Assembly (NCBI GenBank): GCA_021786095.1
Contig: JAJYNX010000078.1
Coordinates: forward strand, 1 to 40,207
Origin: Actinomycetes bacterium
Lineage (GTDB): Bacteria > Actinomycetota > Acidimicrobiia > Acidimicrobiales > RAAP-2
Length of the DNA stretch: 40,207 bases
Direction: 5' to 3'
Shown: one piece after another, positions 14,269 to 17,939 of the stretch
How positions within the stretch are numbered: the stretch's first letter is position 1
How the letters are laid out: each line of letters begins with the position of its first letter
Program-made: the position numbers and the translations under genes
The notes under the pieces: generated by a model
Told to the model about the DNA's origin: nothing
The model's database searches: none
Seen by the model: only the letters and a program-made list of their open reading frames with translations

Positions 14269-15477
14269 TCAGGAGAGGCGTTCGACGATCATCGCCATGC
14301 CCTGGCCACCGCCGATGCACATCGTCTCGAGTCCATAGCGTGCACCGCGGTCCTCGAGGCCGTTGAGCAGCGTCGTCATGATGCGCGCGCCGGTCATGCC
14401 GAAGGGGTGACCGAGGGCGATCGCGCCGCCGTTCACGTTCAGCTTGTCCCAACTGATCCCGAGGTGCTTGGCGCTGGGGATGACCTGCGCGGCGAAGGCC
14501 TCGTTGATCTCGACGAGGTCGATGTCCTCGATGGTCATGCCAGCCCGGCGCAGGGCCTGGCGCGACGCCTCGACGGGCCCGAGGCCCATGATCTCGGGGT
14601 TGAGCGCGCTGACGCCGCTGGCGACGATGCGCGCGAGGGGCGTGATGCCGAGCTCGCGGGCGCGGGTGTCGCTCATGACGACCACCGCGGCGGCCCCGTC
14701 GTTGAGGGGACAGGCGTTGCCGGCGGTCACCGTCCCGCCCTCGCGGAAGACCGGGGCGAGCGACGCCAGCTTCTCCAGGGTCGTGTCCGGGCGGGGCCCG
14801 TCGTCGGTGGACACGATCGTGCCGTCGGGGCGCACGACCGGGATGATCTCGCGCTCGAAGAAGCCATTGTGCTGGCTCGCGACCGCGAGCTGCTGGCTGC
14901 GTAGTGCGAACTCGTCCATCTCGGCGCGCGAGACCCCCTCGAACTCGGCGACGTTCTCGGCGGTCTGGCCCATCGCGATGTAGACGTCGGGCAGGCCAGC
15001 GGCCGGCGCCCACGGCGTGGTGACGCGCGCCGTGCGCTCGGCGGTGCGCGCCAGCGCCTCGTCGAAGCGCGGGTTCATCGCCTTGGGGTTGTCCGAGGTG
15101 CCCGCGGCGAAGCGCGAGACGGTCTCGACGCCGGCGGCCACGAAGACGTCGCCCTCGCCCGCGCGGATCGCGTGGGCCGCCATGCGGATGGCCTGCAGGG
15201 ACGAGGAGCAGTAACGGTTCACGGTGACCCCGGGCACGTCGTCCAGGCCGGCTAGAACGGCGGCGACGCGGGCCACGTTGAAGCCGGCCTCGCCGGCGGG
15301 CTCGCCACACCCGACGATGAGGTCCTCGACGCTGTGGGGGTCGAGGGCGGGCACCTTGTCCAGGACCGCGCGCACGACGTGGGCGGTGAGGTCGTCGGGG
15401 CGCAGGTCGACGAGCGACCCCTTGAAGGCTCGTCCGATTGGGGTGCGACCGGTGGCGACAATGACGGCTTCGGGCAT
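14269..15477 (-). CDS. Acetyl-CoA acetyltransferase / thiolase
   Basis: A 402-residue thiolase, acting either in beta-oxidation (3-ketoacyl-CoA cleavage) or in acetoacetyl-CoA synthesis. The nucleophile is C90 in NRYCSSSLQA, the second active-site loop GHPFGMTG holds H357, and the proton-donor cysteine C387 is in CIGGGQGMA. The N-terminus VIVATGRTPIGRAFKG is canonical. The start is ATG 15477 with GAGGAGG about 6 bases upstream. It lies 39 bases downstream of the riboflavin synthase stop on the same strand, so it may be co-transcribed, but TAGGCT-like -10 sequences and a small palindrome in the gap suggest a promoter of its own. Substrate chain length cannot be told. Confidence 0.93.
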   Translation of the reverse strand: MPEAVIVATGRTPIGRAFKGSLVDLRPDDLTAHVVRAVLDKVPALDPHSVEDLIVGCGEPAGEAGFNVARVAAVLAGLDDVPGVTVNRYCSSSLQAIRMAAHAIRAGEGDVFVAAGVETVSRFAAGTSDNPKAMNPRFDEALARTAERTARVTTPWAPAAGLPDVYIAMGQTAENVAEFEGVSRAEMDEFALRSQQLAVASQHNGFFEREIIPVVRPDGTIVSTDDGPRPDTTLEKLASLAPVFREGGTVTAGNACPLNDGAAAVVVMSDTRARELGITPLARIVASGVSALNPEIMGLGPVEASRQALRRAGMTIEDIDLVEINEAFAAQVIPSAKHLGISWDKLNVNGGAIALGHPFGMTGARIMTTLLNGLEDRGARYGLETMCIGGGQGMAMIVERLS

Positions 15478-15516: not shown

Positions 15517-16065
15517 CTACCTAACGGGGCCGACCCCGTCCGACGAGGCCAGCGGCCCGGCGTCGGCGAACCCCTGGCGCACCCCCTGGCCGGCGCGCGC
15601 GCGCAACTGCTCGGGTTCGAAGAGCATCCAGTAGGCGTTGCGTGCGTGGCGCCGCGAGCGGTCCTCGAAGACGCGGGCGAGGACCGCGGGGTCGTCGGCC
15701 TCGTCCTCGTGCACGAAGACCTCCAGGATCGGCGTCGAGGTCAGCAGTTGGGCCATCATGATCCCCTGGGAGGCCTCGTGGGCGCACTGCTTGTCGATCG
15801 GGGCGCTCCCGGGCATCCCCAGGGCGACCACGATCGCGCAGTGGTCGCGCTCGATGAGGTTCTTGGCGGCCACCGCGAGGTCCTTGAAGCCGGGCACGGT
15901 GGCGGCGACGACAGTGAAGGCGTCGCCGTGGCCGGGACACTGGGCCAGCTCGTCGCGCGCCGCAGCTCCCATGTCGTAGCGCGCGAACATGGTGTCGACC
16001 ACGCCGATGCGCACGGGCTCGCCCGGCGCGGGGGGACGGGGGGACGGGGACTTCGTGGACGGCAC
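15517..16065 (-). CDS. ribC: Riboflavin synthase of the archaeal type
   Basis: A protein of 182 residues. After a Pro-rich start it reads like archaeal riboflavin synthase (the MJ1184 family, related to lumazine synthase, not to the usual bacterial RibE): RIGVVDTMFARYDMG (19-33), ATVPGFKDLAVAAKNL (55-70), IVVALGMPGSAPIDKQCAHE (78-97), then MMAQLLTSTPILEVFVHEDE (103-122) and RAGQGVRQGFADAGP (157-171). The enzyme dismutates two 6,7-dimethyl-8-ribityllumazines into riboflavin and the pyrimidinedione. The start is GTG 16065 with AAGGAGA about 9 bases upstream. No other rib gene is near; the upstream gene is a flavin/F420-type oxidoreductase. A promoter with three 12-base direct repeats precedes it. 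Confidence 0.85.
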   Translation of the reverse strand: MPSTKSPSPRPPAPGEPVRIGVVDTMFARYDMGAAARDELAQCPGHGDAFTVVAATVPGFKDLAVAAKNLIERDHCAIVVALGMPGSAPIDKQCAHEASQGIMMAQLLTSTPILEVFVHEDEADDPAVLARVFEDRSRRHARNAYWMLFEPEQLRARAGQGVRQGFADAGPLASSDGVGPVR

Positions 16066-16088
16066 CGCAGCTCTCCTTGCTCGGACCC

Positions 16089-16129: not shown

Positions 16130-17098
16130 TCAGCGCGGGGCCAGCCCGGCCACCGCGTCGGCCAGCTCGACGCCCGCGGGGATCACCGCGAGAACGGGCA
16201 CGTCGACGCCGCCGGCCACGTAGCGCGCCACGTGCTCTCGGCAGTCCTCGAACGAGCCGTGGATGATCAGCTGGTCGACCAGGTCGTCGGGCACCGCCCT
16301 CGTCGCTCCCGCCCGATCACCGGCGGACCACCGGTCCCACACGGGCTGGAGCACCTCGGCGCGGCCGAGCCAGCGGTGGAACTCGGCGTAGGCCCCGACG
16401 GTCAGGTAGGAGGAGATCAGGCGCCGCCCGATCGCGCGCGCGGCGTCGGCGTCGGTGGTGGGGATGACGAAGAGCCGGGCCGCGACCGTGGCGTCGGCGC
16501 CGATCTCGTCGCGACAGCGCGCCACGTCGCTCGCCGCGAGCCAGTTGAGGATGGCGCCGTCGGCCTCGCGCCCGGCCAGACGCAGCATTCGCGGCCGCAG
16601 GGCACCGAGCAGCAGGGGCGGTCGCACGGTGACCGGTCGGCTGAGTCGAAAGCCGTGCACCGCGAAGGTCTCGAACTCCTCGTCGATTCGCTCGTTGTTC
16701 AGTGCGCGGCGCAGGAAGCGCAGGACGTCACGGGTGTGCGCGTAGGGCCGGTCGTAGGCGATCGCGTTCCAGCGCTCTACCACCGGCTGGCTCGACGCGC
16801 CCAGTCCCATGAGGAAACGGTCCCCGGCGGCCTCGGCCATGGCCGCCACGGTCATGGCGAGCAGGGCGGGGCCGCGCGTGAACGCCGGGGCGACGGCGAC
16901 GCCGACGCGCAGTCGCGCCTCCCAGGCGGCGGCCAGGGCGAGGGGGGTGAAGCCGTCGACGCCGTCCACCTCCGAGGACCAGACGTCGCTGTAGCCGAGG
17001 TCGGCCAGGCGCGTGAACCAGTCGCGATGCTCGGCCAGGGTGACGCCGTCGAAGGGGATGGTGATGGCGTAGCGCGCGGGCGCAGCGAACGGGCTCAT
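16130..17098 (-). CDS. LLM-class (luciferase-like) F420/flavin-dependent oxidoreductase
   Basis: A 322-residue TIM-barrel enzyme of the bacterial luciferase superfamily. The text ITIPFDGVTLAEHRDWFTRL, then LGYSDVWSSEVDGVDGFTPL (33-52), RLRVGVAVAPAFTRGPALLA and GDRFLMGLGASSQPVVERWN follows the LLM-class F420-dependent pattern, including READGAILNW near residue 186. Such enzymes reduce or oxidise C=O and C=N groups with F420H2 or FMNH2; substrates are rarely predictable. The start is ATG 17098, with TACTGT 8 bases upstream as a possible -10. The stop lies 64 bases before ribC on the same strand, so flavin supply and flavin or deazaflavin use may be linked, but ribC appears to have its own promoter. 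Confidence 0.85.
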   Translation of the reverse strand: MSPFAAPARYAITIPFDGVTLAEHRDWFTRLADLGYSDVWSSEVDGVDGFTPLALAAAWEARLRVGVAVAPAFTRGPALLAMTVAAMAEAAGDRFLMGLGASSQPVVERWNAIAYDRPYAHTRDVLRFLRRALNNERIDEEFETFAVHGFRLSRPVTVRPPLLLGALRPRMLRLAGREADGAILNWLAASDVARCRDEIGADATVAARLFVIPTTDADAARAIGRRLISSYLTVGAYAEFHRWLGRAEVLQPVWDRWSAGDRAGATRAVPDDLVDQLIIHGSFEDCREHVARYVAGGVDVPVLAVIPAGVELADAVAGLAPR

Positions 17099-17156: not shown

Positions 17157-17939
17157 TCAGAGCAGGTAGTCGTTGCCGCGCGAGGGCGGCACGGGGAAGC
17201 CCCGGCGCTCGAGGTCGTGGGTCCAGCGCTCGATGAGCGTCTCGACGACCGCGACGCGCGCGTAGTGCTTGTTCTCCCCGGCGATGAGGTCCCAGTGCGC
17301 GTGGGCGTGGTCGGTCCACGCGAGCACGTCGCGCAGTGCCTCGAGGTAGGCGGGTCGCTTCATCCGGTTGCGCCAGTCGTCGGGGGTCAGCTTCCACTGC
17401 TTCAGGGGATCGTTGGCCCGCTCGGTGAAGCGGCGCAGCTGCTCCTCGTCGGAGATGTGCAGCCAGAACTTGACCACGGTGACCCCGTCGTCGACGAGCG
17501 AGCGCTCCAGGTTGACGATCTCCTTGGCCGACGTCTGGGCCGTGGCGCGGTCGATCTCACCCTCGACGCGCTCGACGAGCAGGCGCCCGTACCAGGAGCG
17601 GTCGTAGACGGTCATCTCGCCGCGGCCCGGGATCGACGGCTGGAAGCGCCACAGGAAGTGGTGACGGGCCTCCTCCTCGGTGGGTGCGGCGATGGGCACC
17701 ACCAGCACGTGGCGCGGGTCGAGTCCCTGGGTGAGCCGACGGATCGCGCCGCCCTTGCCGGCGGCGTCGAAGCCCTCGAAGAGCACGAGCAGGCCCGGGC
17801 CTCGGGCGGGGGAGTCGAGGAGGCCCGCGGTCGTCAGGCGCAGGTGTTCGAGGCGCCGCTGGGCCAGGACGACGCGCCGCTCGGACTCCTCGCGCGAGAG
17901 GCTCGCCGTGAGGTCCAGGGTGTCGAGCCGGTCGCTCAC
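17157..17939 (-). CDS. ppk2: Polyphosphate kinase 2 family protein
   Basis: A protein of 260 residues starting at GTG 17939, overlapping the stop of the YfhO-like gene by GTGA. The much longer open frame reaching to 20114 is a shadow of yfhO in another frame. PPK2 enzymes transfer phosphate between polyphosphate and nucleotides. Walker A is GFDAAGKGG (56-64), Walker B-like YDRSWYGR is at 112-119, followed by RLLVERVEGEI and the lid region. The block VKFWLHISDEEQLRRF then the run ending KLTPDDWRNR is typical. The class (ADP, AMP or both) cannot be assigned by eye. Translational coupling to a membrane glycan protein is unusual. Confidence 0.92.
   Translation of the reverse strand: MSDRLDTLDLTASLSREESERRVVLAQRRLEHLRLTTAGLLDSPARGPGLLVLFEGFDAAGKGGAIRRLTQGLDPRHVLVVPIAAPTEEEARHHFLWRFQPSIPGRGEMTVYDRSWYGRLLVERVEGEIDRATAQTSAKEIVNLERSLVDDGVTVVKFWLHISDEEQLRRFTERANDPLKQWKLTPDDWRNRMKRPAYLEALRDVLAWTDHAHAHWDLIAGENKHYARVAVVETLIERWTHDLERRGFPVPPSRGNDYLL

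Follow-up and report, generated by a model that had tools for sequence, protein, structure and literature searches.

An archaeal-type riboflavin synthase very likely displaces bacterial RibE in an actinobacterium of the order Acidimicrobiales

Bacterial RibE, which carries two PF00677 domains, and archaeal-type RibC have the same predicted reaction and occupy the same position in the riboflavin pathway. The archaeal-type family (TIGR01506) is represented among solved structures by RibC of Methanocaldococcus (2B98 and 2B99); in M. jannaschii, we found the TIGR01506 and lumazine synthase families, with PF00677 unmatched at E 0.001. The lumazine synthase RibH (TIGR00114) shares its superfamily fold with the RibC described here. 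Archaeal-type synthases have been found in actinobacteria before: in one report, RibE2 of the roseoflavin-making Streptomyces (S. davaonensis, S. cinnabarinus, S. berlinensis and HUAS 2-6) is an archaeal-like, additional synthase alongside the ribE1 operon, belonging to an antibiotic cluster (PMC11039241). This precedent for a second copy in other actinobacteria goes beyond the initial annotation of the locus studied here.

We analyzed a stretch of 40,207 nucleotides (the window; assembly GCA_021786095.1, contig JAJYNX010000078.1) from an acidimicrobial actinobacterium. It encodes a new member of the archaeal riboflavin synthase family, which resembles Methanocaldococcus RibC in its full-length match, predicted fold and conserved blocks. 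It differs from that enzyme in having a possible 17-residue N-terminal extension and in coming from a host whose RibBA, RibD and RibF are, like the host itself, bacterial. Like Streptomyces RibE2 it is an archaeal-type synthase in an actinobacterium, but it is the only synthase found in its host and lies beside genes for a thiolase and an F420-dependent oxidoreductase. In contrast to bacterial RibE, the protein has no PF00677 match, and RibE itself was not found in the host; in contrast to RibH, it scores under the TIGR00114 cut-off, and the host has a separate, true RibH. The features at the locus are as follows.

14269-15477, minus strand: acetyl-CoA C-acetyltransferase (thiolase; NF005890, 694.7 bits), 39 bases downstream of ribC
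15517-16065, minus strand: archaeal-type riboflavin synthase RibC (TIGR01506), 182 amino acids, identified by NCBIfam, Pfam, phmmer and predicted fold
16073-16078, minus strand: AAGGAG, resembling a ribosome binding site as read from the sequence, seven bases 5' of the RibC GTG start
16130-17098, minus strand: F420-dependent LLM class oxidoreductase (TIGR03841, NCBIfam), upstream of ribC
17157-17930, minus strand: PPK2-type polyphosphate kinase (PF03976, 240 bits, 257 amino acids of the frame scanned), upstream, with a provisional start

The ribC reading frame runs on the minus strand from a GTG at 16065 to a stop at 15517. An alternative GTG at 16014 would give a protein of 165 amino acids; it is the start at 16065 that adds the 17-residue extension. 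The initial annotation had placed the protein in the archaeal riboflavin synthase family and had set it apart from the trimeric RibE with its internal repeat, and both assignments held. All of the motifs it quoted are present in the translation, and the NCBIfam model TIGR01506 (ribC_arch) matched above its equivalog cut-off of 100.55 with 172.7 bits (4.5e-51), compared with 29.5 bits for the lumazine synthase model TIGR00114, under its cut-off of 84.6. The sole Pfam match at E 0.01 was PF00885 (DMRL_synthase; 56 bits, passing the cut-off of 26.7), a family that takes in both RibH and archaeal-type enzymes and is not specific to RibH. No Lum_binding (PF00677) repeat was found in the protein by Pfam at E 0.01, so that the two repeats of RibE are missing.

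The best solved relative by sequence was 2B98, the archaeal pentameric riboflavin synthase (phmmer 4.1e-46), with 53% identity over 150 residues; the closest structures were 2B98 and 2B99 together with designed or fused constructs bearing the archaeal enzyme's name. The predicted monomer had a mean pLDDT of 89.1, with residues 144-149 and 153-155 at the C-terminal end below 50. Foldseek ranked 2B98/2B99 at the top for this model (E 1e-16, TM 0.82/0.90), with lumazine synthases below them (E 2e-8 and weaker). Across 12 aligned sequences including 2B98, the invariant columns were D7, T8, F10, A11 and R12; P41, G42, K44 and D45; G66, M67 and G69; C77, A78 and H79; E98, V99 and F100; and R146, Q147 and G148. 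By analogy with the solved enzyme, a pentameric assembly is predicted.

A phylogenetic tree of 44 RibC and five RibH rows separated the two groups at a 100/100 branch, at which long branches meet and for which the bootstrap had not settled, and the window protein fell outside the five lumazine synthases used, as the initial annotation would have it. The tree covered 30 of the 38 carriers in our sample of the order and 12 of the 80 loci of named relatives; the carriers outside it were L051 (a stop at the coordinates used), L039 and six without a locus. The GC and GC3 contents of ribC (73% and 95%) are close to those of the neighboring thiolase gene (72% and 94%).

We then considered the pathway in the host genome, which is 96.4% complete in 117 contigs. 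RibBA, RibD, RibH and RibF are all present, and a search with PF00677, which matched 11 of 14 control genomes, gave no RibE match in the host, nor did a second search at E 10. The initial annotation had proposed that an archaeal-type enzyme replaced the last step if the genome was without RibE, and that one of the two enzymes might have a different role if both occurred; it had also suggested searching for the rib genes. The search yielded ribH, ribD and ribBA and no ribE, in line with the first of these proposals. The host keeps RibBA, RibD, RibH and RibF, and no riboflavin synthase other than the product of the window gene was found. All other pathway steps searched have a bacterial-type gene (the phosphatase step lay outside the search). 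The gene is indeed far from the other rib genes: ribC lies on contig C24, ribH follows rpe, ribD and ribBA on contig C43, and ribF lies on contig C62. A search for an FMN riboswitch found none in either the window or the rib locus. At 96% completeness and 117 contigs, this one genome could still have a ribE hidden in a gap.

In the wider order, archaeal-type RibC scored above the cut-off in 38 of 248 sampled genomes and RibE in 154. RibE was above the cut-off in none of the 38 RibC genomes (direct PF00677 search, E up to 10), an exclusion with a Fisher p of 3e-19, uncorrected for shared ancestry. On the assumption that the completeness values are accurate and independent, the chance that assembly gaps alone hide RibE in all 38 carriers is about 4e-42. 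RibH was above the cut-off in all of the 23 RibC genomes tested. Four further genomes of the window's genus carry archaeal-type RibC, and the RibE-negative carriers include same-genus assemblies of 7, 40, 40 and 60 contigs. The archaeal-type trait is thus common to many families of the order, a breadth that the initial annotation had not described; one family, f93, holds RibC genomes as well as RibE genomes. The complement of the two synthases is not perfect, as six genomes have RibH and neither synthase above the cut-off (G289, a member of the window's own genus, and G299, G442, G462, G466 and G477). These are drafts of 71 to 97% completeness, and either assembly gaps or a third riboflavin synthase may explain them. 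In two wider samples of the phylum, whose draws overlap, the genomes with RibC above the cut-off all belonged to this order (8 of 296 and 9 of 396 genomes). In the literature searched, with most subscription journals outside it, we found no earlier report of archaeal-type RibC as the only synthase across an order.

Of the 38 carriers, 18 gave PF00677 matches under the cut-off; the match in G294 was the strongest, at E 1.8e-4, and all others lay above 0.005. We rejected the G294 match as RibE, as it spans 45-49 positions within a von Willebrand-type protein. The matches in G453, G327 and G429 were likewise rejected; judged by eye, they fall in proteins of about 200-250 amino acids that are hydrophobic over a stretch close to the N terminus and of low complexity at their ends. 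With G294, the weak matches inspected represent four of the 18 carriers.

The rib operon was compared across 54 loci, comprising 29 that contain RibE, 22 from RibC genomes and those of G289, G228 and G264 (four further loci, L188, L199, L246 and L247, stand outside this comparison). The order ribD-ribE-ribBA was found in 20 of the 29 RibE loci, that is, in every one where all three genes were seen; ribE precedes ribBA in 27, was found alone in the remaining two, and at none of the 29 does ribD abut ribBA. In RibC genomes, ribD lies directly before ribBA in 21 of 22, and the 2-201 bases between them leave no room for ribE; the one exception, G204, has ribD on a separate contig. The operon otherwise reads ribD-ribE-ribBA-ribH, and ribE is missing from that of the host. 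Two relatives keep RibE outside the ribD-ribBA-ribH operon (G228:C1:66854-67405 and G264:C62:19051-19566), so an empty operon slot alone is no proof of loss, and the claim that RibE was lost is carried by the whole-genome searches rather than by the slot.

Among 91 ribC loci, many of which end at contig ends and at least three of which repeat others, a thiolase gene was found near ribC in 68, PPK2 in 63, an F420-dependent oxidoreductase in 61 and phosphomannomutase in 54. ribD, ribBA and ribH were found in the available ribC flanks of none of the 91 loci (E 1e-15). As 80 of the 91 are the window's nearest relatives (the best 80 of at least 556), these neighbor counts describe close kin.

Could the protein instead be a paralogue of lumazine synthase that has diverged and serves some other role, such as a second RibH, in a host whose riboflavin comes from an unrecognised enzyme? 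Its lumazine-synthase fold and its passing of the DMRL_synthase cut-off would fit, but the riboflavin synthase equivalog gives the protein 172.7 bits and the lumazine synthase model gives it 29.5, its identity to a solved enzyme of the archaeal type reaches 53%, and the group to which it belongs parts from RibH at 100/100. A true RibH is moreover encoded elsewhere in the host genome, and RibE is above the cut-off in none of the 38 carriers, which makes such a paralogue very improbable. We give an equally small chance to a RibE hidden in an assembly gap, which would make the archaeal-type enzyme an additional synthase as in the roseoflavin-making Streptomyces. The completeness of 96.4% in 117 contigs leaves some room for such a gap, RibE2 is reported as an extra copy (PMC11039241), and in the relatives G228 and G264 RibE is encoded outside the rib operon. 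Against this stand the 38 carriers without RibE, among them the same-genus assemblies of 7, 40, 40 and 60 contigs, and the location of the strongest match under the cut-off (G294) within a von Willebrand-type protein. Least probable of all, to the point of being barely credible, is contamination by a contig from an archaeon. An archaeal-type gene in a fragmented assembly, with named relatives that are mostly metagenome bins, could raise that suspicion, but the flanking genes belong to bacterial families (thiolase, F420-dependent LLM oxidoreductase and PPK2) and are found next to ribC time and again in related genomes, ribC is close to the adjoining thiolase gene in GC and GC3, and four more genomes of the genus carry ribC.

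The reading that best fits the pattern is a non-orthologous displacement of RibE, which the genome context makes very likely. The basis for a replacement comprises the family and predicted fold of the protein, the undetectable RibE, the other pathway genes, the mutual exclusion of the two synthases and the ribE-less operon, and we hold with high confidence that a working RibC of the archaeal family replaced bacterial RibE in this host. In the proposed course of events, ribC would have arrived by horizontal transfer from an archaeal-type source, ribE would have gone from the rib operon, and RibC would have taken over the last riboflavin step. The host's bacterial RibBA, RibD and RibH would still make lumazine; RibC, putatively expressed and predicted from its sequence to act as a riboflavin synthase, would probably dismutate two molecules of 6,7-dimethyl-8-ribityllumazine to riboflavin and 5-amino-6-ribitylaminouracil; and the host's RibF would convert riboflavin to FMN and FAD.

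In many families of this environmental actinobacterial order, one enzyme seems to have given way to an unrelated one at a core step of vitamin B2 synthesis, and the steps before and after it stayed bacterial. Annotation that takes RibE as the sole bacterial riboflavin synthase would overlook RibC or call its hosts auxotrophs. The order also offers natural before-and-after genomes for asking why enzyme swaps are tolerated.

To gauge the number of transfers, we took a RibBA tree as a proxy for descent. On this tree, which is a quick one with 21 of 49 inner branches open, four changes are required for the RibC/RibE label, with G228 and G264 counted as RibE and G289 left out; RibBA itself could also have moved between genomes. 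Only one of these changes is forced by branches with good support, which makes the tree compatible with a single acquisition and losses. When the 28 acidimicrobial RibC sequences were constrained to a single clade that excluded Streptomyces RibE2 and the archaeal protein, the arrangement was not rejected (p-AU 0.268), in a tree made from the 44-row RibC set minus the 12 named-relative loci and two more. As the trees include one archaeal RibC sequence, the direction of transfer rests on a single sequence. Archaeal-type ribC was found neither among viral contigs nor among phages, and a plasmid search with either query returned one Streptomyces record only. It is conceivable, though rather doubtful, that RibE was displaced repeatedly within the order, with ribC moving between families after its acquisition from archaea, and that the order or its donor was the source of Streptomyces RibE2.

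The Streptomyces plasmid copy comes from S. camelliae HUAS 2-6 (NZ_CP115301.1), and its RibC is 63% identical to the core of the window protein. On this linear plasmid, ribC lies beside ribA, a gamma-glutamyltransferase gene, ribX and rosB (L067, 9318-15490), and the region is the roseoflavin rosB cluster.

Among the best 80 of at least 556 relatives of the window's ribC, 37 had titles with Acidimicrobi-, 37 named other actinobacteria, five Acidobacteria and one Saccharibacteria; these titles point to Acidimicrobiales as the order sampled here. The records titled Acidobacteria or Saccharibacteria (L079, L101, L102, L114, L124 and L130) are 81-86% identical to the window's ribC and are probably mislabelled bins. 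The L101 sequence is shared with a contig of G284, a genome placed in the window's genus.

Finally, 27 of the 49 genomes of the order without RibH retain RibD above the cut-off. The F420 gene cofH was found in all 27 (E 1e-20; in G407 as fragments only), compared with eight of the 22 genomes lacking both RibH and RibD above the cut-off (Fisher p 5e-7, with no correction for ancestry or incompleteness, and with two genomes in the set, G088 and G178, lacking a RibE test). This distribution suggests that the genomes keeping RibD are riboflavin auxotrophs that retain the early steps for F420.
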